Assembly (NCBI RefSeq): GCF_039904985.1
Contig: NZ_CP157005.1
Span: forward strand, 558,001-622,000
Length of the DNA: 64,000 nucleotides
Origin: Methylomonas sp. AM2-LC
Lineage (GTDB): Bacteria > Pseudomonadota > Gammaproteobacteria > Methylococcales > Methylomonadaceae
Reading direction: 5' to 3'
Under the pieces are notes generated by a model. The model worked only from the letters and a program-made list of their open reading frames with translations. It did not search any database and was not told the origin of the DNA. Below, one piece after another: positions 1 through 51,262 of this stretch. A program made the translations under genes and the position numbers. Position 1 is the stretch's first letter. Each line of letters opens with the position of its first letter.

Positions 1-678
1 GGCATTTTGCTCTATTTGGGTTTCTATTCATTCATTCGCTGGTATGAAGGTGTCTACGGCTGGTCAGCTGGTTTAGACTCATTTGCACCAGAGTTTGAAA
101 CTTACTGGATGAACATGCTGTACATCGAACTAGTTGTTGAAGTTCTGTTGTTTGCAGGTATCAACGGTTATATCTGGAAAACTCGTGATCGTAAAGTGAT
201 GTCTATCACTCCACGTGAAGAGTTGAGAAGACATTTCACACATTGGATCTGGTTGGTTTGCTACGGCTGGGCTATCTACTGGGGTGCTTCTTACTTCACA
301 GAGCAAGATGGTACATGGCACCAAACGATCGTTCGTGATACTGACTTTACTCCAAGTCACATCATTGAGTTCTATTTGTCATACCCAATCTACATCATCA
401 CTGGTTCAGCTTCATTCATGTATGCAAAAACAAGACTGCCTACATACCATGAAGGTTTGCACCTGATGTATCTGATTGCAGTTATTGGTCCTTTCATGAT
501 TCTGCCTAACGTAGGTTTGAATGAGTGGGGTCACACTTTCTGGTTTATGGAAGAGTTGTTTGTTGCTCCATTGCATTACGGTTTCGTATTCTTTGGTTGG
601 GCTGCTCTGGCTGTAATGGGTGTGGTAAACACCGAAGTAATGGCAATTACCAAATTGCTGAAAAAAGATTTAGCTTAA
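1..678 (+). CDS. pmoC: Particulate methane monooxygenase subunit C (5' end outside window)
   Basis: Membrane subunit of pMMO, which oxidises methane to methanol in the intracytoplasmic membranes. The reading frame is open from base 1, so the start lies upstream; 225 C-terminal residues are visible. Both PmoC copper-ligand sets are present: D (307-309), H (319-321) and H (358-360) have the D-x3-H-x12-H spacing of the CuC site, and N (520-522), H (532-534) and H (574-576) have the N-x3-H-x13-H spacing of the CuD site. The C-terminal motifs GPFMILPNVG and NEWGHTFWF are near-invariant in the family. It is first in a pmoCAB operon, 116 bases before pmoA. The assignment rests on these motifs and on the pmoA and pmoB genes that follow. 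Confidence 0.98.
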   Translation, partial: GILLYLGFYSFIRWYEGVYGWSAGLDSFAPEFETYWMNMLYIELVVEVLLFAGINGYIWKTRDRKVMSITPREELRRHFTHWIWLVCYGWAIYWGASYFTEQDGTWHQTIVRDTDFTPSHIIEFYLSYPIYIITGSASFMYAKTRLPTYHEGLHLMYLIAVIGPFMILPNVGLNEWGHTFWFMEELFVAPLHYGFVFFGWAALAVMGVVNTEVMAITKLLKKDLA

Positions 679-715
679 TAAGCAAATCTATAAAAGTAAA
701 AATACTATCTCCTTT

Positions 716-741
716 CCTGCTCTGCTGTTAGGTAGAGTAGG
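716..741 (+). promoter_or_regulatory. Hairpin in the pmoC-pmoA spacer
   Basis: An 8-base stem (716-723 with 734-741, one G-U pair) closes a 10-base loop between pmoC and pmoA. No T-run follows, so it is not a clear terminator. Such spacer hairpins could set different mRNA stability for pmoC and pmoAB; that role is inferred. The pmoA ribosome-binding site (AGGAGGT, 782-788) lies further downstream. Confidence 0.4.
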
Positions 742-794
742 ATAAGAGAGAAGTTTAAAAAAAATATAATTTTAATTCTTTAGGAGGTAAGCTA

Positions 795-1544
795 ATGAGC
801 GCATCTCAATCAGCTGTACGTTCACGTGCGGAAGCGGTACAAGTTTCTCGTACGTTTGACTGGATGATTCTTTTTACACTGTTCACAGCGGTTCTGGGCG
901 GTTATCACATTCACTATATGTTGACTGGTGGTGACTGGGATTTCTGGACTGACTGGAAAGATAGACGTCTATGGGTAACTGTAGCACCTATCGTTTCAAT
1001 TACATTCCCTGCAGCTGTTCAAGCATGCTTGTGGTGGAGATACAGATTACCAATCGGCGCTAGTGTTGCTGTTGCTGGTCTTCTGTTAGGTGAGTGGATC
1101 AACAGATACATGAACTTCTGGGGTTGGACATATTTCCCAGTTAATATCTGCTTCCCATCTAACCTGTGGCCTGGTGCTATCGTTCTTGACGTTATTTTAA
1201 TGCTGGGTAACAGCATGACGTTGACTGCGGTTGTTGGTGGTTTGGCTTATGGTTTGTTGTTCTATCCTGGCAACTGGCCTATCATTGCTCCATTGCATGT
1301 TCCTGTTGAATACAATGGCATGATGATGACTCTGGCTGACTTACAAGGTTACCACTATGTTAGAACTGGTACACCTGAGTACATTCGTATGGTAGAGAAA
1401 GGTACATTAAGAACTTTCGGTAAAGACGTTGCTCCAGTATCAGCGTTCTTCTCTGGATTCGTTTCTATCATCATTTACTTCTTGTGGCATTTCTTCGGCA
1501 GATGGTTCGCTAAAACCGATTTCATCTCTGATGATGCAACCTAG
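795..1544 (+). CDS. pmoA: Particulate methane monooxygenase subunit A
   Basis: Integral membrane subunit of pMMO, the usual marker gene for methanotrophs. At 249 residues it has the normal length and is dominated by hydrophobic helices. The GDWDFW box encoded at 930-947 is the target of the common pmoA/amoA forward primer, and the family-typical EKGTLRTF segment lies near the C-terminus. The start is fixed by a consensus ribosome-binding site, AGGAGGT at 782-788, six bases before ATG. The sequence is of the type Ia methanotroph kind rather than AmoA. It is second in the pmoCAB operon, and 92 bases separate it from pmoB. A diverged paralogue, pxmA, lies at 48.5 kb. Confidence 0.98.
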   Translation: MSASQSAVRSRAEAVQVSRTFDWMILFTLFTAVLGGYHIHYMLTGGDWDFWTDWKDRRLWVTVAPIVSITFPAAVQACLWWRYRLPIGASVAVAGLLLGEWINRYMNFWGWTYFPVNICFPSNLWPGAIVLDVILMLGNSMTLTAVVGGLAYGLLFYPGNWPIIAPLHVPVEYNGMMMTLADLQGYHYVRTGTPEYIRMVEKGTLRTFGKDVAPVSAFFSGFVSIIIYFLWHFFGRWFAKTDFISDDAT

Positions 1545-1569
1545 TTGAAGGTTTGATTGAAAATGACAG

Positions 1570-1594
1570 CTGGCATATGCAGTACGAGTGCCAG
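1570..1594 (+). promoter_or_regulatory. Hairpin in the pmoA-pmoB spacer
   Basis: A perfect 6-base inverted repeat (CTGGCA 1570-1575, TGCCAG 1589-1594) with a 13-base loop lies in the spacer ahead of pmoB. It could form a small mRNA structure between the cistrons. No T-run follows. Function is unknown. Confidence 0.3.
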
Positions 1595-1636
1595 AAGATC
1601 TTAATTACAAGATTCTCTAGTAATAGAGGAGGGAAT

Positions 1637-2881
1637 ATGAAAATAATAAAAGACAAAGTTGCTAAACTGTCCTTTGTCGCACTGCTGATCACTTTGACAG
1701 CAGCGATGTTCTATGCTCCAACAGCATCTGCTCATGGTGAAAAGTCACAGGCTGCGTTTATGCGTATGCGTACTATTCACTGGTTTGACCTGAACTGGTC
1801 AAAAGAAGAAGTTGCTATTAATGACACAATGACAATTGGCGGCAAATTCCTGGTTTTCGCAGGATGGCCTGAAACTGTTGATAAACCAGAAATCTCGTTC
1901 TTGAACGTTGGTATTCCTGGTCCTGTGTTTATTCGTGCCGGTTCTTGGATCGGTGGTCAATTGGTACCACGTTCAGTTTCTTTGGAACTGGGCGAAGTTT
2001 ATGAGTTCAAAGTTCTGCTGAAAGCACGTCGTCCAGGCGACTGGCACGTTCACGCTATGATGAACGTCAAAGGCGGTGGTCCAATTATTGGTCCAGGTAA
2101 ATGGGTAACCATTACTGGTTCAATGAGCGAATTCGTTAACCCAGTAACTACATTGACAGGTCAAACAATTGATCTGGAACATTATGGTCTGGATAACGTC
2201 TACTTCTGGCATGCTCTGTGGTATGCAATTGGTTTAGCTTGGTTGGGTTACTGGATCAAAAAACCATTGTTCGTTCCACGTCACATCGCTGTGAGCACTG
2301 GTAAAGCTGATACATTAATCACTCCAACTGACAGAAAAGTTGGTATTTTGTTCGGTGTTGGTACATTGGTAATCGTTGCTGCTTCTATGGGCACAACCAA
2401 TGATAAATATCCTGTAACTACTCCTCTGCAAGCAGGTTTGTTACGTGGTATGAAAACATATCAAATGCCAGAACAAACTGTTACTGTTAAAGTTGATGAT
2501 GCAACTTATCGTGTACCAGGCCGTGCAATGCAAATGACCTTGACTATTACAAACAATGGTGATTCACCAGTTCGTTTGGGCGAGTTCAACACTGCTGGCG
2601 TTCGTTTCTTGGATCCTGCGGTTCATGTTGACGAATCTGGTTACCCAGATGACTTGTTGGCAGAAGAAGGTTTAACTGTTAGCGACAACAGCCCATTGGC
2701 TCCAGGTGAGTCACGTACTGTTGAAGTTACAGCTTCTGACGCTGCATGGGAAGTATATCGTCTTGCTGACTTGATATACGATCCAGATAGCCGTTTTGCT
2801 GGTCTGTTGTTCTTCTGGGATGCTAATGGCAATCGTCAATTGGTAACAATTGATGCTCCATTAATTCCAACTTTCATCTAA
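1637..2881 (+). CDS. pmoB: Particulate methane monooxygenase subunit B
   Basis: Periplasmic copper-binding subunit of pMMO with two cupredoxin-like domains joined by two membrane helices. The frame is open from 1553, but ATG 1637 is the start: GAGGAGGG (1626-1633) precedes it and a signal peptide follows, ending TASA before His33. With this start the protein has 414 residues, and His33, His137 and His139 fall exactly at the copper-site numbering known from Methylococcus capsulatus. His48 is present, while position 72 is Leu, so the bis-His site seen in M. capsulatus is not complete here. Membrane helices lie at about residues 185-205 and 235-255. It is the last gene of the operon and is followed by a strong terminator. 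Confidence 0.98.
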   Translation: MKIIKDKVAKLSFVALLITLTAAMFYAPTASAHGEKSQAAFMRMRTIHWFDLNWSKEEVAINDTMTIGGKFLVFAGWPETVDKPEISFLNVGIPGPVFIRAGSWIGGQLVPRSVSLELGEVYEFKVLLKARRPGDWHVHAMMNVKGGGPIIGPGKWVTITGSMSEFVNPVTTLTGQTIDLEHYGLDNVYFWHALWYAIGLAWLGYWIKKPLFVPRHIAVSTGKADTLITPTDRKVGILFGVGTLVIVAASMGTTNDKYPVTTPLQAGLLRGMKTYQMPEQTVTVKVDDATYRVPGRAMQMTLTITNNGDSPVRLGEFNTAGVRFLDPAVHVDESGYPDDLLAEEGLTVSDNSPLAPGESRTVEVTASDAAWEVYRLADLIYDPDSRFAGLLFFWDANGNRQLVTIDAPLIPTFI

Positions 2882-3026: not shown

Positions 3027-3425
3027 ATGAAGAAAATTCTAATCTATATCACCTTATTGATATTAGTAGGTTGTGCAGAAAAACAAGAATATGAACAAGC
3101 TGTTGTAGAACAGATGAAACAGGAAAAAGATATAAAGGATTATAAAATAGAGCCAGAGGAAATGGCAAAATGCGTTGTGCAAACAACCGCCAACAATATG
3201 CCAGGTTTATTTACGGCTGATCCTACAAGGTTAAACGCATATAAAAATTATACAAAAATGCTTAAACTGAATAGCAGTAGCGATCCTAAAAAAACATTAG
3301 AAGAACTAAGAACGGATTTCGGAGATGCCAAAAAATTAGCCGATGCACATGCAAATTACACTGAAAGTGTGCTTAACTGCATGTCAGGCTTAGTAACTAG
3401 TGATGAAAAAGAATTGGTAAAATAA
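3027..3425 (+). CDS. Small predicted lipoprotein downstream of pmoCAB
   Basis: 132 residues, family not recognised. The N-terminus is a lipoprotein signal: hydrophobic residues 5-13 followed by the lipobox LVGC with the acylated Cys at position 16. The mature part is charged and probably helical (KQEYEQAVVEQMKQEKD). It holds two further cysteines, one in MAKCVV and one in LNCMSG. The start at ATG 3027 has AGAAGAG 8 bases upstream. It lies between the pmo terminator and copC, so a role in pMMO maturation or copper handling is possible, but only from position. Confidence 0.75.
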   Translation: MKKILIYITLLILVGCAEKQEYEQAVVEQMKQEKDIKDYKIEPEEMAKCVVQTTANNMPGLFTADPTRLNAYKNYTKMLKLNSSSDPKKTLEELRTDFGDAKKLADAHANYTESVLNCMSGLVTSDEKELVK

Positions 3426-4012: not shown

Positions 4013-4690
4013 ATGAAAATAAATTATAAGTTATTGCGTATCCAGATATTAATTAGTTGCTTACTAATATTATCCGCATGTGAAAAACTAGGGATCAATA
4101 CAAATAAAACGAATGCCCTTGGTAATAGACCTGACTTAGATTGTATTATTGCAAACGATTTTTATGCAGTACATTTCAGTTCCTATATTCAGCCAGTAAA
4201 AGGCGAACCTGTGGGAGATACAAAAGCAGCGTTTGTGCCCTATTGTCAAAAAATACCTCACGCCGGTAGAATGTTTTTTACTGCTGATCTTATTGATCGA
4301 GATATACGTACAACGCCTATTGGTATTCGCTTAGTTGAAGTTGAAAAAACAACAGAAAAAGCACCAAATGACTATCGGGTAATACGTACCGTAGTAGATT
4401 TACCCGCTAAGTTATATCCAAGAGGTGCGGTAGAAGCACAAGCTGATATTGATAAGAATGGTGATTACCAACTGATTTTATTAATTGGAGATGCAATCGA
4501 AGATGATGATAAATTTAAAATATCTTTAGAAGTTGGTGTCGATCCAAATGCGTTACCTGTCTATTGGATAATAGTGTCAGGTGCTAGTTTATTGATAATT
4601 ATCGTAATCTTTACTTTGATTTATCGTAAAAAAAATAAACACAAAGCAATTAATATAGAAAATAAGCAAAATAGTGACAAAATTGAGTAA
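4013..4690 (+). CDS. Lipoprotein with C-terminal membrane helix, Cys/His/Cys family
   Basis: 225 residues. The lipobox LSAC places the acylated Cys at 23. A periplasmic domain of about 150 residues follows, then one membrane helix at roughly 185-205 with a Lys-rich cytoplasmic tail. Conserved-looking positions are C44, H54, Y58 and C78, then a D92/D95/R99 pattern. The same pattern occurs in the protein encoded at 10180-10773, so the two look like distant paralogues. The layout (signal, periplasmic domain, C-terminal helix, next to pmo and copC) recalls the AmoD/AmoE/PmoD group of operon-linked proteins; that link is inferred and not proven by motif. It probably acts in pMMO copper supply or assembly. 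It lies 32 bases after copC, so the two are likely cotranscribed. Confidence 0.75.
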   Translation: MKINYKLLRIQILISCLLILSACEKLGINTNKTNALGNRPDLDCIIANDFYAVHFSSYIQPVKGEPVGDTKAAFVPYCQKIPHAGRMFFTADLIDRDIRTTPIGIRLVEVEKTTEKAPNDYRVIRTVVDLPAKLYPRGAVEAQADIDKNGDYQLILLIGDAIEDDDKFKISLEVGVDPNALPVYWIIVSGASLLIIIVIFTLIYRKKNKHKAINIENKQNSDKIE

Positions 4691-4853
4691 ATAGAGACGC
4701 TATTGATTGTGTTAAAAAGAAATTTTAATAGTTTTTCAAATAAAGAGAATCAAACAGTCATTATTATTGTTATTTTCAGTCCTAGTTAAGCACCCAATAT
4801 AGCTTTATTGAAGTGCATAAAGCTTAATCGTGGCACAAAACAGCATTTGCGGC

Positions 4854-4878
4854 AGTCCAGTTAGTGATTGACTGGACT
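4854..4878. other. Inverted repeat between convergent genes
   Basis: A perfect 8-base stem, AGTCCAGT (4854-4861) with ACTGGACT (4871-4878), closes a 9-base loop between the convergent lipoprotein gene and valS. It may act as a terminator for either side, but there is no adjacent T-run on either strand. Confidence 0.4.
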
Positions 4879-4938
4879 ACGCAAACGTTGTGTTAAAACA
4901 ATAACTGAGAGATGCTAATCTTATTTAATTATCACCAT

Positions 4939-7746
4939 TCAAAGCAATTTTATTTTAGTTTGTTGGTTTATCAGATTATTTAAAGTTGACATATAATCAG
5001 CCAGTTTTTCTCGTTCTTTAACAATAACTTCGGGTGGTGCTTTATCAACAAACGCAGGATTATTCAGTTTGCCTTCAATACGAGGTAATTCTTTTTCAAT
5101 ACGTTGAATTTCTTTATCTAGACGTGCTAATTCAGCTGATTTGTCAATCAGACCTGCCATAGGAATTAGGATTTTTAAATCACCAACTAAAGCAATAGCA
5201 GATTCTGGGGCAATATCTTCATTGGTTAACCATGTAATGCTTTCTAGTCGGCCAAGTTTTAAAAGGTAAGTCAAGCTGTTAGATATACATTGTCTATCAT
5301 TGGCAGAGCCATCTTGTAGTAGTACATTTAATGGTTTACTAGGCGCAATATTCATTTCTCCACGGATTCGGCGTATGCCAAGAATAAAAGCCATAAACCA
5401 TTCAGTCTCATTGATGGCCGCTGTATTAATGAGATCGGCATCACTGACAGGATAGGGTTGTAGCATAATTGTGGCAGCCGTAATACCCGTCATAGGGGCA
5501 ACACGTTGCCAAATTTCTTCGGTAATGAATGGCATAATTGGATGCGCGAGGCGTAAAACCGTTTCAAGAACTTTTAATAAGGTTTGTCGCGTACCCCGTT
5601 GTAAAGCTTCATCTTCAGACTGTAAAGAAATTTTAGCCAATTCAAGATACCAATCACAGTATTCATTCCAAGTGAAATCATAAATTGATTGTGCTGCTAG
5701 ATCAAAACGATAATGATCAATAGCATCTGTAGTGGTTGCTATGACTTGATGTAAACGCGAAATGATCCATAAATCCACTGCGCTATAGCTACAATCAATG
5801 CAGCCCAGACCGTTGTCTTGCTCTTCGGTGTTCATCAGCACAAAACGTGCGGCGTTCCATAATTTATTACAGAAGTTACGATAACCTTCAGTACGCGCAA
5901 GATCAAAACGAATGTCACGGCCTGTGGAAGCCAGTGAGGCAAAAGTGAAACGTAAGGCATCCGTACCAAATGAAGGAATACCATCAGGAAATTGTTTACG
6001 AGTAGCCTGTTCTACTTTTTGGGCAAGATGGGGTTGCATCATGCCAGAAATTCGTTTGTCTATTAAAGACTGTAAATCAATTCCATCAATAATATCGATT
6101 GGATCAAGGACATTACCTTTAGATTTTGACATTTTTTGGCCTTCAGCATCTCGAACCAGACCGTGAATGTACACTTCTCGAAAAGGCACCTCGCCTTGGA
6201 ATTTTAAACCCATCATAATCATGCGGGCTACCCAGAAGAAAATAATATCAAAGCCAGTGACCAGTACACTGGTTGGGTAATGTTGAGCTAGTTCAGGGGT
6301 TTTGTCTGGCCAACCTAATGTTGAAAATGGCCAAAGAGCGGAAGAAAACCAAGTATCAAGCACATCCTGATCTTGAGTCAAAGCATACTCAGCTGGTAAT
6401 GCATGTTTTATACGAATGTCTGCTTCAGATACGCCCACATAAATATTACCAATATCGTCATACCAAGCAGGAATTCGATGTCCCCACCAAATTTGCCTTG
6501 ATATACACCAGTCTTGAATATTACGCATCCATTCGAAATATGTATTCTTCCAATTATCAGGTACAAATTTGATAGCACCAGATTCAACTGCATCAATGGC
6601 TGGTTTGGCTAAAGGAGCAACTTTAACATACCATTGATTAGTCAAAAAAGGTTCAATGACGGCTCCAGATCTATCACCGCGGGGCACCATCAGTTTGTGA
6701 TCGGCAATTTTTTCTAATAATCCTAAGGCCTCTAAATCAGCCACAATGAGCTTTCTGGCTACAAAGCGATCCAGACCTACATAGGTGGCAGGGATAAGCG
6801 TATATTCATCGTTATTGTCTCTAATAGCAGCGTCGAGGGTGAAGATATTAATCAGACCACCATGAGGTAAATCAACGATAGCGCTTATATGCTTGTGTCT
6901 TGTCCAAACTTCATAATCATTGAAGTCATGAGCCGGTGTAATTTTGACGCAACCAGTACCAAACTCAGGGTCGACATATTCGTCAGCAATAATTGGAATG
7001 CGTCGTCCAGTGAGGGGTAAGTCTACAAATTCTCCAAGTAAATGTTGGTAGCGCTCATCATTGGGGTTAACCGCAACAGCAGCATCACCAAGCAAAGTTT
7101 CTGGTCGAGTAGTGGCAACCTGAAGATAGCCCTTTCCATTACTTAAAGGGTAACGCATATACCACATAAAGCCATTTTCTTCTTCAGAAAGTACCTCAAG
7201 ATCAGAAACTGCAGTATGTAAAATAGGGTCCCAATTTACCAAACGTTTACCACGATAAATTAAACCTTCTTCATACAGTTTAATGAACACTTCCTGTACA
7301 GCTTTGGACATACCCTCATCCATGGTAAAGCGTTCGCGATCCCAATCCAGAGAAGAGCCCATTCGGCGTAATTGTTTAGTGATGGTGCCGCCAGATTGTT
7401 CTTTCCATTCCCAAATTTTTTCAATAAACGCTTCACGTCCATAGTCATGACGTGATTTACCCTCAGCATTGATTAAGCGCTCAACAACCATTTGTGTAGC
7501 AATACCTGCATGGTCCGTTCCAGCTTGCCATAAAGTATTGTAACCTTTCATACGATGATAACGACTGAGGGCATCCATTATGGTATCCTGAAATGCATGG
7601 CCCATATGTAAGCTGCCAGTTACATTGGGTGGTGGGATCATTATGCAATAGGACGGGCCTTGTCTATTAGCAGCAAAATAGCCGCTCGCTTCCCAAATAT
7701 GGTACCAGCGTTGTTCTATGGTATGTGGGGAATAGGTTTTTTCCAT
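4939..7746 (-). CDS. valS: Valyl-tRNA synthetase
   Basis: Charges tRNA-Val with valine in the cytoplasm. 935 residues, normal for bacterial ValRS. The class I signature is seen at residues 38-50 ([13 protein letters not shown], the HIGH motif), with KMSKS at about 535-540 in [11 protein letters not shown]. The editing domain lies between them. The C-terminus ends in the ValRS coiled-coil arm ([19 protein letters not shown]). It is transcribed alone or with the downstream valS-side spacer; the next gene upstream on the same strand is far enough away (7793) to leave room for a promoter only within the membrane-protein gene end. Confidence 0.98.
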
Positions 7747-7792
7747 GACAGTATCAGATAGGTAGATGAGCTAATTTAAGTGGGTTGAGTCG

Positions 7793-8569
7793 TTATTTGC
7801 TAGGCATACTATGCCCGTAACGCAAATAATAGGTCGTTTTTTCAATGGCAATCAAAACTGGGGTAGCGCCAGCAATAGCTACGGCATCCACCAGACAATA
7901 CCAAGCGGCTACGCCACTTGGCGGATTACCTTGCGGTAGCCTAGTGGCGGGGTCAATAGTGGCCCAAGCCCAAGTGCCGGCACTTGTACCTACTATCTCA
8001 AGCCATGAAGTGATGAAGAATGCACCCAAATAAACCATAGGTGATTTGCCTTTAAATAGATAAAGCAAAAATACGCCGAATAGTACAGCACCAATCAGGT
8101 CTTGACGTTGGCTAAAGCTGCTAATACCCCACAAAGTCCACAGGCTACAAATACAGACAACAAAAATGGCAATGTAGCGAGCGTGGCGTTGAAATAAGCC
8201 TGAGCGACCTAAAGCAACTGCGGTTAAATATACCAAACCATGCCCAGCAGGAACATAGGCGGGTAAATTACCAAAGCGGTAAATATAGCCGTGCATATAG
8301 ATAGAAGCAAAATATTCACCAATTACGGCAAAGGTAACTGCTACAGCAACCTGTGTGCGTACATATTTACATTCCTTGCGTAAAAAGGCTAATAGGAATA
8401 CCCAGCCGAAAAAAGCTAAGACATACTGCATGGCTTGTGGAGCAAATCCATCAGTAGTTAAGCAGATAGTGACCGTTACAAATGTAAATACAGCAATTCG
8501 ATAGTCGCGTGAACGATGGTCGGCAATGCTATCTTTTGGGGGGAAATGTGGTAAAGAGATAAAACTCAT
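7793..8569 (-). CDS. Unrecognised multi-spanning membrane protein
   Basis: About 258 residues from ATG 8569; the frame is open further upstream into yqaA (to 8716), so the exact start is uncertain, and no good ribosome-binding site is visible. At least six hydrophobic helices follow a charged N-terminus (PPKDSIADHRSRDYR). The second half is rich in Trp and small residues (SWLEIVGTSAGTWAWA, then a GNPPSGVAAW loop). I do not recognise the family. It lies just after yqaA on the same strand, so the two are probably cotranscribed. Confidence 0.65.
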   Translation of the reverse strand: MSFISLPHFPPKDSIADHRSRDYRIAVFTFVTVTICLTTDGFAPQAMQYVLAFFGWVFLLAFLRKECKYVRTQVAVAVTFAVIGEYFASIYMHGYIYRFGNLPAYVPAGHGLVYLTAVALGRSGLFQRHARYIAIFVVCICSLWTLWGISSFSQRQDLIGAVLFGVFLLYLFKGKSPMVYLGAFFITSWLEIVGTSAGTWAWATIDPATRLPQGNPPSGVAAWYCLVDAVAIAGATPVLIAIEKTTYYLRYGHSMPSK

Positions 8570-8615
8570 TTTCGCATTGGAAAAAGCTGAAATCATGACA
8601 ATAATCGCTGATATA

Positions 8616-9041
8616 TTATACGAATGCGTATGCAACTGCCAGATAACGTAAAACTTTACCAGAAAAAATAGCGATAAACGACGAAATAGGGGGTAGTTTG
8701 AGCCAGCCACCAGCAAAACACAGTCCGTCGCCGACTATGGGTAGCCATGAGAATAATAATACCCAACCGCCCCAGTGACGAACAGTATATAACGCTTTTT
8801 GTTGTCGAGAACTAAGCAGAGTTTCGGCTGGGTATTTTTTTGCTGCCCAGATGCCTATTCCCCACGTAGTAATTGCACCTAATGTGTTGCCTATACTAGC
8901 AATAATAACCAGTTCATAAATAGAGTTTGCTGATCGATTGATCATATAAGCCAAAATAACTTCCGATCCACCAGGCGCGATGGTGGAGGATATAAAAGCG
9001 CTTAAGAATAATCCAGTTAAGCCTAATGATTCGAACTGCAT
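8616..9041 (-). CDS. yqaA: YqaA-family inner-membrane protein (DedA/SNARE-associated superfamily)
   Basis: 141 residues, the size of E. coli YqaA (about 142). Shared YqaA landmarks are PGGSEVILAYM near the N-terminus, GNTLGAITTW, the SWLPIVGDGLCFAGGWL segment, and the C-terminal GKVLRYLAVAYA. It has four to five membrane helices and is thought to belong with the DedA-like transport proteins, though its own role is not established. The start at ATG 9041 lies only 15 bases after the terminator of the upstream gene, which leaves no room for a normal promoter between them. Confidence 0.88.
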   Translation of the reverse strand: MQFESLGLTGLFLSAFISSTIAPGGSEVILAYMINRSANSIYELVIIASIGNTLGAITTWGIGIWAAKKYPAETLLSSRQQKALYTVRHWGGWVLLFSWLPIVGDGLCFAGGWLKLPPISSFIAIFSGKVLRYLAVAYAFV

Positions 9042-9055
9042 ATTTCATTTCTCAT

Positions 9056-9090
9056 AAAAAGCCTCTGGAATTAGGCATTTCAGAGGCTTT
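9056..9090 (-). terminator. Rho-independent terminator after the cupredoxin gene
   Basis: Perfect 10-base stem (9058-9067 with 9081-9090) and a 13-base loop; on the minus strand it is followed by five T's (9056-9060). It lies about 95 bases after the stop of the cupredoxin gene and directly before yqaA. Confidence 0.88.
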
Positions 9091-9183
9091 AGATAATGCT
9101 TAACTTAAATAGTAAGGGTGAAATAGAAATCGGCTTAACTTTATTTATAGTGAGTTACAAGTATAACTGTATAGGTTAAGCTT

Positions 9184-10083
9184 TTATTTATCCGATAAAG
9201 GAATGATTTTTTTGCTTGAAAGTTGTTTAATCAAGCGCATAATCAGTCCAATAATTACTCCAATACCATGGGATGTAAGCTCTATTATACTGGCCACAAT
9301 TTCACTTGCGCTCATGCCTTTAAATCTGTTCACTAGCAATGGGGCAATAATAAGGCCTATCGCTAAACCGATTATTGAGACACCAGAAAAAACGGAGGTA
9401 GTTTGAGATTGCGTTGTTACTGGAGCCGATTTAGCTGTATCGGTTAAGGTCGTAGGAGTTGGTAGCGGCGCAGAGTATTCTTCTGCAACATACGGTTTGC
9501 CACTATAATCATCTGGAAATATGCTGGCAGTTAAGCCAGGAATGCTAGGAAGTTCTTCACTGCCTTTGCCTACTTTTAATTGGGCTTTCATGCCTTTTTC
9601 CATATGCTGGGCAATATCGCAATGCACTAAATAGGTTTTATCACCGGGTGGCAAGATTAGAGTACCTGATACTTCGCCAGGTCCGCTCACTTCTAGATGA
9701 AACATGCCTTTCGGGTAAAGATACTTAGGTAATCCATGCATCATCCACTGATGACGAATCTCGTCTTCATTAATAAAATGAACTGTTAATTTAGTACAGG
9801 GATCGAAATGAAATTCTTGTTGGTCAAAAGCGTACATAGTACCCGGAAATTTTTCCGAATATTTATGACCAGCGCGTACGGTTATCTCTTTGGTTGCAGC
9901 GATTTTCTCACAACCACCGGGTAGTGTGTCAGTATTTTGCCCCATTACCATGCCGCCATCCATGTCCATCAGATGACCGTCACCGTGTGACATCATTTGT
10001 GTATGGTTTTGAAACTCTTTAGCGGAAACTGGGTTAACAGACAGTGCGCAGATTATGACAGCAATTGCTACTAGTTTGTCCAT
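9184..10083 (-). CDS. Membrane-anchored cupredoxin (type 1 copper protein)
   Basis: 299 residues. A signal peptide ends VSA at residue 21. A His/Met-rich stretch follows (H27, M30, M31, H33, H37, M39, M41, M45, M47), of the kind that binds Cu(I). The cupredoxin domain runs from about 58 to 172: C155, H160 and M165 (C-x4-H-x4-M) form the ligand loop, with H111 or H116 as the other His. C58 and C96 could pair as a disulfide. A linker rich in Pro/Thr leads to one or two membrane helices at about 232-285. It is probably a periplasm-facing copper carrier or electron-transfer protein. It is cotranscribed with the gene at 10180-10773 (96-base gap) and ends at a strong terminator. The family is inferred from the ligand pattern. 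Confidence 0.8.
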   Translation of the reverse strand: MDKLVAIAVIICALSVNPVSAKEFQNHTQMMSHGDGHLMDMDGGMVMGQNTDTLPGGCEKIAATKEITVRAGHKYSEKFPGTMYAFDQQEFHFDPCTKLTVHFINEDEIRHQWMMHGLPKYLYPKGMFHLEVSGPGEVSGTLILPPGDKTYLVHCDIAQHMEKGMKAQLKVGKGSEELPSIPGLTASIFPDDYSGKPYVAEEYSAPLPTPTTLTDTAKSAPVTTQSQTTSVFSGVSIIGLAIGLIIAPLLVNRFKGMSASEIVASIIELTSHGIGVIIGLIMRLIKQLSSKKIIPLSDK

Positions 10084-10179
10084 TATAATGTTTTCTCGGT
10101 ATCTGAAATGATGGAAGATGCCTAATGATGGGTTATTCAGCTGTATGATGTACAGCTGAATAACACTTTATGTATTAAA

Positions 10180-10773
10180 TTAAAACTCTTTCGCTCTACC
10201 CAAAAGTTCATCAACTTTACGTTTGAAGCCAGCATTGGATAAGTAAACTATATATAAACCAGCTAATAATACCAGAGCATATAATCCTAGATTTCCTTTA
10301 CTGACAGGCTGACCTGCACCCGCTTTAAAGCTCATGTGTGCATCTAGACGCTCGCCATTATCTTGTAAAAGCGTAATATGAATGAGATATTTACCTGCTT
10401 CAGCAACCCCGTCATTTAGAGAAAGTACTACAGTTCCTGATTTATGTTTTTTGGCGCCTTCAAAGAAAACACGCTTACCTTCAGGTTCTTTGGTGACTTC
10501 AAATTCAATTGCCATATTACGATAGCGTTGATCCTGATAGTCAAATACTAATTGAATTAAGGTATTTAAATCAGGTAAATTACCGCAAAATTCTTCTGCC
10601 GGATAAGCTTTCGGTTCGTATGCAGTGTAATGGAGCCAGTGATCTTTTTCCAATTCAAATTTACATTGATCAGTGTCGGTTCCAGCTGCACCACCATGAG
10701 CCCATAGTGCCGTTGAAAAAAGTAGTGCCAATAAACCCAATAAACTATTTTTTAAAATGTGTGTTTTTCTCAT
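10180..10773 (-). CDS. Membrane-anchored periplasmic protein, Cys/His/Cys family
   Basis: 197 residues. A signal peptide ends LWA, leaving a mature HGG N-terminus, a possible copper-binding start. The periplasmic domain has C37, H48, Y52 and C63, then D78/D81/R85; the same order and nearly the same spacing occur in the lipoprotein at 4013-4690. One membrane helix lies at about 163-180 with a short Lys/Arg-rich tail. It is the first gene of a two-gene unit with the cupredoxin. The context and the mature N-terminal His suggest copper handling. I cannot name the family with confidence; it resembles the AmoD/AmoE/PmoD layout. Confidence 0.72.
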   Translation of the reverse strand: MRKTHILKNSLLGLLALLFSTALWAHGGAAGTDTDQCKFELEKDHWLHYTAYEPKAYPAEEFCGNLPDLNTLIQLVFDYQDQRYRNMAIEFEVTKEPEGKRVFFEGAKKHKSGTVVLSLNDGVAEAGKYLIHITLLQDNGERLDAHMSFKAGAGQPVSKGNLGLYALVLLAGLYIVYLSNAGFKRKVDELLGRAKEF

Positions 10774-48366: not shown

Positions 48367-48417
48367 GCGTGTCGATCAGCCATTAAGGTTTTAGGTTGCG
48401 ACTGGTTGACGACACGC
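48367..48417 (+). promoter_or_regulatory. Large dyad in the pxmABC leader
   Basis: GCGTGTCG (48367-48374) pairs perfectly with CGACACGC (48410-48417). After a single bulged A, TCAGCC (48376-48381) pairs with GGTTGA (48404-48409, one G-U). The result is a 14-pair stem with a 22-base loop, ending 53 bases before the pxmA start. It is either an operator dyad or, if transcribed, a strong 5'-leader RNA hairpin. No T-run follows. Confidence 0.6.
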
Positions 48418-48470
48418 CCAAATGTTCATGCGACGACTGTCGTTCACAAGACATCATAGGAGAATCTACT

Positions 48471-49223
48471 ATGTCCGCACAAATACCAATTTCAACGTTT
48501 AAACCGTACCGTGGCGAGAAAGTCCGGTTGGCTAGGGCCTACGATTATCTGATCCTGGTTTTGGCCCTGTTTTTATTTATAGGTTCGTTTCATCTGCATT
48601 TTGCCCTGACCGTCGGCGATTGGGACTTCTGGGTCGACTGGAAGGATAGGCAATGGTGGCCGTTGGTGACACCGTTAATTGGCATCACCTTTCCAGCAGC
48701 AGTTCAGGCAGTAATGTGGGATAAATTTCGACTGCCTTTTGGTGCAACCTTATGCATCGCCGCCTTATTGCTGGGCACTTGGGTTACCCGCGTATTTGCC
48801 TATCACTACTGGAATTATTTCCCCATCAATATGGTGTTGCCAGCGACCATGGTGCCCGGTGCTCTAGTACTAGACGCATTGTTGATGCTAACTAATAGCC
48901 TGACCATCACTTCAATTTTCGGCGGCGGCGCGTTTGCGCTTTTGTTTTACCCCACCAACTGGCCGATCTTCGGCATGTTTCATCAAGCGGTCGAATACCA
49001 CAACAGCCAACTCAGTGTGGCCGATTTATTCGGTTTCCAATATATCCGTACTGGCATGCCGGAATACCTGCGCATCATCGAGCGCGGTACATTGCGGACT
49101 TACGGCCAGTATGCGACACCGCTGTCTGCATTTTGTTCGGCGCTGCTGTGTTCGCTGATGTATCCGCTGTGGTGGCATATTGGCAAGTGGTTTGCCAGTA
49201 CCCGTTATTTGACCAAAATTTAA
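48471..49223 (+). CDS. pxmA: Divergent copper-monooxygenase subunit A (PxmA)
   Basis: 250 residues from ATG 48471; AGGAGAA at 48458-48464 sets the start, and the frame upstream to 48396 is not coding. It keeps the PmoA framework (GDWDFWVDWKDR, GITFPAAVQA, RTGMPEYLRIIERGTLRTYG) but differs at many positions from the window's own PmoA. The A-B-C gene order is diagnostic of pxm rather than pmo or amo. PxmA sequences belong with the unusual pmoA-like genes first reported in Crenothrix. The substrate of Pxm is not settled; expression under low oxygen has been reported in other methanotrophs. Confidence 0.95.
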   Translation: MSAQIPISTFKPYRGEKVRLARAYDYLILVLALFLFIGSFHLHFALTVGDWDFWVDWKDRQWWPLVTPLIGITFPAAVQAVMWDKFRLPFGATLCIAALLLGTWVTRVFAYHYWNYFPINMVLPATMVPGALVLDALLMLTNSLTITSIFGGGAFALLFYPTNWPIFGMFHQAVEYHNSQLSVADLFGFQYIRTGMPEYLRIIERGTLRTYGQYATPLSAFCSALLCSLMYPLWWHIGKWFASTRYLTKI

Positions 49224-49235
49224 GGGGGAGCCAAC

Positions 49236-50474
49236 ATGAAAACGTATTTTAAAACTTGGCTATTAGCCTTAATCGCACTCACTGTATTGTCCGGTTTGCC
49301 GGTGTCATCCGCCCAAGCCCATGGTGAAAAAGCCTTGGAACCCTTCATCAGGATGCGGACTATTCAATGGTATGACGTGCAGTGGTCCACGCAAAAATTC
49401 AACGTCAACGATGAAGTCAGCGTCAGCGGCAAGTTTCATGTCGCCGAAGATTGGCCGATCAGCGTGCCTAAGCCGGAAGCCAGCTTTTTGAATATTTCCA
49501 CCCCTGGGCCGGTAATGATTCGTACCGAACGGTATCTTAACGGCAAGCCGTGGACCAATTCGGTGGCCTTGGAACCGGGCGGCGATTACGACTTTAAGGT
49601 AGTCATGAAAGGCCGATTGCCAGGGCGTTATCACATCCACCCGTTTTTTAACATAAAAGACGCGGGGCAAGTCATGGGACCAGGTGTTTGGCTGGAAATC
49701 GGTGGAAATGCCGGCGACTTTAACAACACCATCAAAACCATCAACGGTGAAATGATCGACATGGAAAGTTTCGGCTTTGCCAATGGCGTGTTCTGGCACC
49801 TATTTTGGGGCGTTTTGGCCGCCGCCTGGCTATTATGGTGGGTGCGTCGGCCCTTATTCATCAGCCGCTATCGGATGCTGGATGCTGGCTTAGAGCATGA
49901 ACTGATTACGGCGCAGGATAAGTTAATTGCCAAGCTAGTGTTGGTTGGCGTACCCGTATTGGTGTTGGTTCTGAATGCCGTAACCGCCAATCGTTATCCG
50001 GATGCCATTCCACTACAAGCTGGATTGGATCAAATACTGCCGCTACCTGCGCAAGTCAATGCCGGAACCGTGAATGTTGATTTGTTAAAAGCGGAATACA
50101 ACGTCTCTCAGCGTGCAATGGTGCTGCAAGTCAAGGTCGACAATCGTAGCCAAGATGCGGTGCGGATTGGTGAGTTTTCCAGCTCTAACGTGCATTTCAT
50201 GAATGCCGAAATGTTTGGTGTTGGTTACGCCCCGAGCAAGGATGATGTCAGCAACAACGGCCTAAGCTTGAATGACAATTCACCGATTCAGCCTGGAGAG
50301 CAACGCACCGTCACCCTAGAAGTGCGTGATGCCGCCTGGGAGTCGGAGAAATTGGATGGTCTGATTCGTGATGCGGATTCCCGTCTGGGAGGCTTGCTGT
50401 TTCTTTACGATGACACGATGGGCAAACGTTATATTTCCAGCATTACTGCCGCCGTAATTCCAAAATTCATTTAA
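49236..50474 (+). CDS. pxmB: Divergent copper-monooxygenase subunit B (PxmB)
   Basis: 412 residues. GGAG at 49227-49230 supports ATG 49236. A signal peptide ends AQA, leaving mature His29 followed by GEK, matching PmoB His33. H133 and H135 (GRYHIHP) match His137 and His139 of PmoB, so the copper site is complete. At the position of PmoB His48 there is Gln44, and at the position of PmoB Leu72 there is His68. Two membrane helices lie near 180-200 and 230-250. It is 12 bases after pxmA. Confidence 0.95.
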   Translation: MKTYFKTWLLALIALTVLSGLPVSSAQAHGEKALEPFIRMRTIQWYDVQWSTQKFNVNDEVSVSGKFHVAEDWPISVPKPEASFLNISTPGPVMIRTERYLNGKPWTNSVALEPGGDYDFKVVMKGRLPGRYHIHPFFNIKDAGQVMGPGVWLEIGGNAGDFNNTIKTINGEMIDMESFGFANGVFWHLFWGVLAAAWLLWWVRRPLFISRYRMLDAGLEHELITAQDKLIAKLVLVGVPVLVLVLNAVTANRYPDAIPLQAGLDQILPLPAQVNAGTVNVDLLKAEYNVSQRAMVLQVKVDNRSQDAVRIGEFSSSNVHFMNAEMFGVGYAPSKDDVSNNGLSLNDNSPIQPGEQRTVTLEVRDAAWESEKLDGLIRDADSRLGGLLFLYDDTMGKRYISSITAAVIPKFI

Positions 50475-50488
50475 TCCAGGAGCAGAAC

Positions 50489-51262
50489 ATGGCTACTACT
50501 AGCGAAGACATTGTCTCAACCCAAGAAAACTCATCATCTCTACCTTGGTATTTGATAGACATTCCCAAATATTTAAAGGGCTTTGGCCTATTAACCGTCA
50601 TTTACGTTAGCTTACGACTCTATCAAGGCGCCTTTGCCGTAGAGCACGGTTTAGATTCTACCGAACCGGCCTTTGAGCAATACTGGATGCGGCTGTTTTA
50701 TATCGAAATGGTCATCATCGCCGCCGTCGCCAGCGGCTTTTGGGGCTATTTATGGCTCTCCCGCGACCGGCAATTGGATCAACTAGAACCCAAGGAAGAA
50801 ATTCGCCGCTATTTTACGTTGACGATGTGGATCAGCATTTACACTTTTGCCGTGTATTGGGCGGGCAGTTATTTTGCAGAGCAGGACAACTCCTGGCATC
50901 AGGTGGCAATCCGCGATACGCCGTTCACAGCCAATCACATCATCGAGTTTTACTTCAACTTCCCGCTGTATGTGATTCTGGGCGGTTGTGCCTGGCTGTA
51001 TGCCAGAACCCGCTTGCCATTATATGCCAAAGGCATTTCGTTACCGTTGACGCTGGCAGTATTTGGACCATTCATGATTTTGGTCAGTGTTGGCTTTAAT
51101 GAGTGGGGACATACCTTCTGGTTTCGCGAGGAATTCTTTGCAGCACCAATTCATTGGGGCTTTGTAATCGGTGTTTGGTTTGCACTAGGCGTAGGCGGCA
51201 TCTTGCTGCAAGGAGTTACCCGACTGATCGAGTTGCTTGATCAAATTGAAGATGTTGAATAA
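50489..51262 (+). CDS. pxmC: Divergent copper-monooxygenase subunit C (PxmC)
   Basis: 257 residues. AGGAG at 50478-50482 supports ATG 50489. All PmoC copper-ligand positions are kept: D-x3-H-x12-H in EQDNSWHQ...NHIIEF, and N-x3-H-x13-H in NEWGHTFWF...IHWGF. Five or six membrane helices. It is 14 bases after pxmB and closes the operon; the MFS gene follows after 28 bases without a terminator in between, so read-through is possible. Confidence 0.95.
   Translation: MATTSEDIVSTQENSSSLPWYLIDIPKYLKGFGLLTVIYVSLRLYQGAFAVEHGLDSTEPAFEQYWMRLFYIEMVIIAAVASGFWGYLWLSRDRQLDQLEPKEEIRRYFTLTMWISIYTFAVYWAGSYFAEQDNSWHQVAIRDTPFTANHIIEFYFNFPLYVILGGCAWLYARTRLPLYAKGISLPLTLAVFGPFMILVSVGFNEWGHTFWFREEFFAAPIHWGFVIGVWFALGVGGILLQGVTRLIELLDQIEDVE

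Follow-up and report, generated by a model that had tools for sequence, protein, structure and literature searches.

The question raised by this window, a stretch of 64,000 nucleotides of Methylomonas sp. AM2-LC (RefSeq assembly GCF_039904985.1, contig NZ_CP157005.1, positions 558,001 to 622,000), is whether two proteins encoded at separate copper-linked loci belong to one family, and what that family might do. The two proteins are P1 (4013–4690, plus strand, 225 residues), whose gene comes after pmoCAB, a gene for a small lipoprotein, and copC, and P2 (10180–10773, minus strand, 197 residues), which lies back to back with pgi and has a cupredoxin-like gene (9184–10083) downstream in its own direction. 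A first-pass annotation of the sequence had read coordinates, frames and the orientation of P2 towards the cupredoxin correctly, and proposed an unrecognised copper-delivery family for particulate methane monooxygenase (pMMO), possibly related to AmoD, AmoE and PmoD. The relationship is borne out by profiles and predicted folds, on which P1 and P2 are almost certainly members of the PmoD/AmoD family; the family itself is a known one, described in 2018, when a crystal structure (6CPD) and the effect of disrupting the gene were reported (PMC6189053).

Single-sequence comparison of P1 with P2 gives no significant likeness (BLASTP E 0.11; the Smith–Waterman score was reached by 164 of 2000 shuffles), and neither protein has a Pfam or NCBIfam model over cut-off. 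The profile–profile comparison that had been suggested as a check gives an hhalign probability of 82.8 (E 9.3e-6) for P1 against P2, and of 98.2 (P1) and 98.3 (P2) against the Methylocystis PmoD, while the ten decoy pairings, in which P1 or P2 is set against CopC, the cupredoxin, PmoB, PmoA or the VTT-domain protein, stay at 0.1–1.9; on profiles the likeness of P1 and P2 lies above chance. Profiles built without alpha-proteobacterial rows match the 6CPD sequence (P1 5.6e-10, P2 4.7e-9), and the predicted structures, also proposed as a check, give the periplasmic domains of both proteins the PmoD fold of 6CPD. Two family sequences (L095 and L128) match the P1 profile as well as the P2 profile. 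A likeness of P1 or P2 to CopC was not found by hhalign (probability 1.9 and 1.2), the fold likeness of P2 to the CopC-type structure 5icu being only loose (Foldseek E 3.9e-4). Foldseek/VIA matches to CopC, CrdA, lytic polysaccharide monooxygenases (LPMOs) and antibody-like folds lie in the commonly-hit range and were left unused, and weak matches to Orthoreo_P10, fabA and GG_III-CTERM fall on the membrane helix.

As first noticed from the letters alone, both proteins have one plan: an export signal, a Cys/His/Cys core and a C-terminal transmembrane helix, the last seen in hydropathy and in the predicted models (helix 161–202 in P1; helices 134–154 and 156–171 in P2, mature numbering). P1 has the lipobox L-S-A-C23 after a hydrophobic segment, and P2 a hydrophobic segment at 6–24 within a signal-like stretch ending LWA, with the predicted cut at A25↓H26; one protein is thus predicted to be lipid-anchored and the other to have a mature N-terminal histidine, as had been proposed. 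All eight pairs of the earlier hand alignment fall in the same columns of our joint alignment A1 (P1 C44/H54/Y58/C78/P82/D92/D95/R99 with 37/48/52/63/67/78/81/85 of L033, a P2-type row numbered as the window's P2). Our survey covered the Gammaproteobacteria (369 genomes of the class, 237 of the window's own family and 38 relatives of genome G280) together with 20 named loci, with Verrucomicrobia, NC10 and Nitrospira outside its scope, and yielded 180 open reading frames (ORFs), of which five truncated ones were dropped, leaving 175 family sequences with both cysteines. Across these, seven positions of the pattern are kept in 163–175 sequences (C44 and C78 in 175, P82 in 173, Y58 in 169, R99 in 167, H54 in 166 and D92 in 163), while the eighth, D95/D81, is weak at only 120. 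A regular expression for the pattern found 168 of the 5921 ORFs in the loci fetched by then and none outside the family. Among P2-type rows C37, H48 and C63 are present in 19 of 19 and H45 in 15, the remaining four showing a gap and no inserted residue.

The two proteins represent the two deepest branches of the PmoD family in this sample. The tree was a quick one with a midpoint root (170 of the 175 sequences, reduced to 85 representatives at 80% identity; support was below 80 for 35 of its 82 inner branches), and at a Shimodaira–Hasegawa-like approximate likelihood ratio test (SH-aLRT) value of 97 it separates the 32 representatives that group with P1 from the 53 that group with P2. The branches keep different company. 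In 55 of 58 P1-type loci, a count that leaves out the repeat loci L073 and L129–L132, copC lies directly upstream on the same strand; in the other three it overlaps P1 in an over-long frame (L111), has no match in 2.1 kb (L121), or no upstream sequence is available (L122). Same-strand pmoCAB directly upstream is found only at the window locus and L104 among these 58; pmoB lies about 4.5 kb upstream in L119 and downstream on the opposite strand in five (L114, L115, L126, L134 and L135), and L129–L132, of the same genus and with wider flanks, contain copC and no pmo genes. Other loci of this genus have flanks of about 1.5 kb or less, which makes the survey of pmo linkage partial. P1 was considered as a marker of pmoCAB operons and dropped, its position after pmoCAB being unusual.

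Genes of the P2 branch keep company with pmo/amo operons and with genes for multicopper oxidases and cupredoxins. Counting loci with at least 600 bases on the side concerned, with repeats removed and identical sister-species proteins kept, the next gene downstream is a cupredoxin in 43 of 58 and a multicopper oxidase in 12 (neither in L089, L091 and L096), and 54 of 59 have a divergent pgi on the upstream side. The order pgi, P2, multicopper oxidase, cupredoxin, VTT-domain protein is found in L218, L219, L220, L222 and L229, and without a detected pgi in L221; L205 has PmoD, multicopper oxidase and cupredoxin, and in L208 pmoC, pmoA, pmoB, PmoD, multicopper oxidase and cupredoxin follow on one strand. 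The multicopper oxidase is absent from the wider P2 stretches L223–L227 and from the window. Relatives of the window's cupredoxin (E up to 1e-10), which itself matches PF07731 at E 8.5e-4, just under cut-off, occur in 233 of 237 genomes of its family. Both copC-linked and multicopper-oxidase-linked pmoD genes had already been noted in Methylococcus capsulatus (PMC6688271).

A second difference between the branches is at the predicted mature N-terminus. In 89 of the 175 sequences a histidine stands 8–17 residues before the first cysteine, right after the small residue that closes the hydrophobic stretch, in most cases within A↓HGG or A↓HRG. The lipobox expression fits 49, the residue after the lipobox being Asp in 30 and Glu in nine of them, and 37 carry neither label. 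These labels are regular expressions and not the output of a signal-peptide predictor: both look spurious for L126, and L105, L106, L010 and L031 are lipoprotein-like and lie outside the lipobox expression. On the tree the N-terminal-His label falls on 46 of the 53 rows of the P2 branch and on one of the 32 of the P1 branch (L184, MLA↓HEGH, doubtful), and needs four changes; in G558, where a tandem pair follows a PmoB-type gene, both proteins of the pair carry it. The 37 with neither label include all 20 sequences of the Methylocystaceae type, 19 of them reading EGGAG and one (L154) GGDGP at this place; PmoB lies upstream in eight of these loci, most of the others ending too soon. The window's own PmoB (SAHGEK) and CopC (MAHAIL) likewise start A↓H, and in both proteins the N-terminal histidine is a copper ligand. 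For P2 we infer from the sequence that the signal is cleaved exactly before His26. The 6CPD model spans residues 37/38–163, and all constructs carried a vector-derived Ser-Met in front (PMC6189053); no mention of such an N-terminal histidine was found in the text examined, and no paper was found that joins PmoD with a histidine brace.

One PmoD clade, on the P2 side of the family, adjoins cytochrome oxidase genes (L201, L209–L216 and L230–L232). Genomes G280 and G403 have PmoD with neither PmoB nor PmoA (0 of 2); G280 shows the order coxB, coxA, two COX3-type genes, COX4_pro, PmoD, multicopper oxidase and cupredoxin, the last 47% identical to that of the window over 194 residues. In family f47, to which G280 belongs, nine of 19 genomes searched have PmoD and ten no match, and relatives of the G280 COX3 and COX4_pro genes lie directly upstream of PmoD in all nine. 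PF04744 (PmoB) is over cut-off in none of 20 genomes (these 19 and G403), with one sub-threshold match in G604, an f47 genome without PmoD; PmoA was sought in G280 and G403 only. This clade tips the balance towards a protein that loads copper generally and away from one specific to pMMO, with electron transfer as a further possible role. The article describing the family places PmoDs in monooxygenase genomes, all of them in one place and 98.5% in another (PMC6189053), and in the one paper found to combine PmoD, cytochrome c oxidase and copper chaperones the passages on these subjects contain no such cox link. In L231 (7719–10059), L230 (8121–10314) and L202 (9723–11965) PmoD is followed by two genes, one for a YtkA-like protein and one for a di-haem peroxidase of the MauG type, named from Pfam in L231 and by eye in the other two, with the YtkA-like part in one open frame with PmoD in L202; the arrangement is reminiscent of MbnP/MbnH-type pairs.

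Taken together, P1 and P2 are best explained, with slightly better than even confidence, as periplasmic copper proteins anchored to the inner membrane that have a copper-passing role. Both would bind copper themselves, held on a face formed by the first cysteine, the conserved histidine and, in P2, the free N-terminal histidine, while the second cysteine could close a disulfide as in 6CPD. They might then hand copper on between the soluble copper proteins of the periplasm and the copper enzymes of the membrane, P1 with CopC likely in copper acquisition under scarcity, and P2, with a type-1-like cupredoxin (in other genera a multicopper oxidase), likely active in copper plenty, where it may load or maintain membrane copper oxidases such as pMMO. 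We give this chaperone reading with its division of labour about an even chance. It agrees with reports that the PmoDs tested bind copper and that gene disruption slows growth on methane with copper (PMC6189053), and that in M. capsulatus the copC-linked and oxidase-linked pmoD genes respond to copper oppositely (cited in PMC6688271).

Several points weigh against it. H54 is replaced by Tyr, Asn, Gly or Ala in nine of the 175 sequences, and P1 matches the repeat-design protein 8erw at 1.5e-9, better than 6CPD, a match that we set aside as a sum of weak repeats, none significant alone. For ‘SSALWAHGG’ the −3,−1 rule would also allow signal cleavage three residues upstream of His26, and the predicted local distance difference test (pLDDT) value of the P2 model is about 39 over the first ten mature residues, with residues 1–9 under 50; because of these low values His1 cannot be placed. 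P1 and P2 are taken as counterparts of MCA2170b and MCA2130 from gene neighbours, not from a tree that includes those two genes. Chaperone, electron transfer and structural stabilisation are all left open in PMC6189053, and the gene neighbourhoods seen here would suit the latter two as well.

That P1 and P2 are electron carriers, shuttling electrons to pMMO or cytochrome oxidase through a copper centre with the cupredoxin as partner, we regard as unlikely. It would suit the cupredoxin beside most P2-type loci, the clade beside cytochrome c oxidase genes and the CuA site formed by Methylocystis PmoD (PMC6189053), but where that protein has the CuA ligand Met49, two residues ahead of the conserved histidine, P1 has Ala52 and P2 has Trp46, which places both outside the CuA subset (Cx7MxHxnC) and leaves neither expected to hold such a site; the three representatives of other motif classes tested in 2018 bound copper without forming a CuA site (PMC6189053). 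Less probable again is detoxification or storage, in which P1 with CopC and P2 with multicopper oxidase and cupredoxin would guard the periplasm from excess copper. Multicopper oxidases, which adjoin 12 of the 58 P2-type loci, and CopC are common in copper resistance. However, PmoD tracks copper monooxygenases in the class sample, resistance islands lying outside the survey, and the copC-linked type rises when copper is absent, not in excess (PMC6688271). A new family like PmoD only superficially, the original proposal, is hardly credible: the missing Pfam and NCBIfam models and the BLASTP result speak for it, but profiles and folds lead to 6CPD and two sequences bridge P1 and P2.

Beyond the copper-passing reading we tentatively suggest, at well below even confidence, that PmoD/AmoD is at root a periplasmic protein that loads copper into membrane copper oxidases in general, cytochrome c oxidase included, rather than a part of methane or ammonia monooxygenase, and that the mature N-terminal histidine belongs to its ancestral copper site, as in PmoB, CopC and LPMOs. 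With this histidine replaced in all 20 sequences of the Methylocystaceae type, the one crystallised, and the model starting at 37/38 behind vector residues, such a site would have been missed.

Among the 369 genomes of the class, PmoD occurs in 13 and PmoB in 11, all of them among the 13. In the window's family, at E up to 0.001 and with paralogues counted, 96 of 237 genomes encode P1-like proteins and 226 encode P2-like ones (171 of 173 good genomes). The window genome has two PmoB genes, hence a copper membrane monooxygenase, and four PmoD paralogues: P1, P2, L063:5996–6613, which adjoins a second copC, and L064:5596–6201, which starts AHRGAP. In genus g26, P1-like matches (G212, G213, G215, G217 and G220) and cupredoxin matches (G210, G211, G213 and G214) contain one or two internal stop codons and may be pseudogenes or alignments overrunning the natural gene end.

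Features of the P1 and P2 loci, in window coordinates
Feature	Position	Strand	Basis or remark
pmoCAB	1–2881	+	pmoC cut by window edge; PF04744
CopC, conserved partner upstream of P1	3597–3980	+	PF04234 E 2e-24; adjacency counts
P1, PmoD family, copC-linked branch, predicted lipoprotein, C-terminal membrane helix, Cx9HxnC motif	4013–4690	+	6CPD match, tree branch, copC adjacency
Cys23, predicted lipidation site of P1 lipobox LSAC, Glu next	4079–4081	+	sequence; lipobox expression
P1 C44 (4142–4144), H54 (4172–4174), C78 (4244–4246)	4142–4246	+	counterparts of PmoD Cys41, His51, Cys65
P1 C-terminal hydrophobic helix, residues 185–203	4565–4621	+	Kyte–Doolittle (KD) mean 2.75
Cupredoxin-like, membrane-anchored, conserved downstream partner of P2, type-1-like H...Cx4Hx4M (by eye)	9184–10083	-	
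P2, PmoD family, ‘HGG’ branch, C-x7-H-x2-H ... C	10180–10773	-	6CPD match, tree branch
P2 C-terminal hydrophobic helix, residues 160–178	10240–10296	-	KD 1.82
P2 C37 (10663–10665), H45 (10639–10641), H48 (10630–10632), C63 (10585–10587)	10585–10665	-	
His26, predicted first residue of mature P2	10696–10698	-	19/19 P2-type rows of alignment A4, trimmed to start at His26 (untrimmed count: 89/175 family sequences)
pgi, conserved divergent neighbour of P2	11083–12720	+	name read from sequence alone

Between pmoB and copC a 132-residue predicted lipoprotein with two further cysteines is encoded (3027–3425, plus strand), whose Pfam and NCBIfam matches are all below cut-off and which, among the loci fetched then, gave only self-matches (2 of 2). 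Another operon for a copper monooxygenase, the second in the window, lies at 48396–51262 (plus strand), with its genes ordered A-B-C and a PmoB-type match at 49323–50468; we take it to be pxmABC-like, and none of the four PmoD paralogues of the window genome adjoins it. Similar-looking esterase-like proteins (GHSDGG, by eye; no Pfam match) are encoded beside PmoD loci in two genomes of different families (L064:6241–7140 and L208:7668–8603).

The role of PmoD/AmoD matters for two enzymes on which the oxidation of methane and of ammonia depends. To the known family our analysis adds, as new only so far as the literature searched extends, its division into two branches, a lipoprotein form, a predicted N-terminal histidine and a link to cytochrome oxidase; the histidine, the two branches with different partners and the cox-linked clade provide three handles on that role. 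Tagged expression constructs would mask the conserved predicted histidine. In practical terms, Methylomonas sp. DH-1, used as a host, is reported to have a pmo operon without pmoD (PMC8764830), in contrast to the present genome with its four paralogues, one in line with pmoCAB.

Comparison with known systems places P1 and P2 close to the PmoD of Methylocystis sp. Rockwell (Met49242_1452, 6CPD), with which they share the fold, two invariant cysteines, the conserved histidine, the signal peptide, the C-terminal helix and the link to pmo and copC. Unlike it, both lack the CuA methionine, P1 is a predicted lipoprotein, and P2 has a predicted mature N-terminal histidine (where Methylocystaceae-type relatives mostly have EGGAG), one more residue between cysteine and histidine (Cx10H) and an extra His45. 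P1 shares Cx9H and an adjoining copC with the copC-adjacent Cx9HxnC PmoDs, which include MCA2170b of M. capsulatus and whose class makes up 22.2% of PmoDs (PMC6189053); P1 is in addition a predicted lipoprotein, a word that is absent from the main text of that article. MCA2130, the multicopper-oxidase-adjacent PmoD of M. capsulatus, is described with a neighbourhood like that of L205 and 12 P2-type loci, whereas in the window genome P2 and the cupredoxin have no multicopper oxidase gene between them. AmoD and AmoE of ammonia oxidisers are of the same family as P1 and P2; in the ammonia-oxidiser-like tandem pair of G558 the first protein, in the amoE position, has Cx7MxH and the second, in the amoD position, Cx9H, whereas P2 has neither motif, and the Amo pair sits inside the monooxygenase operon.
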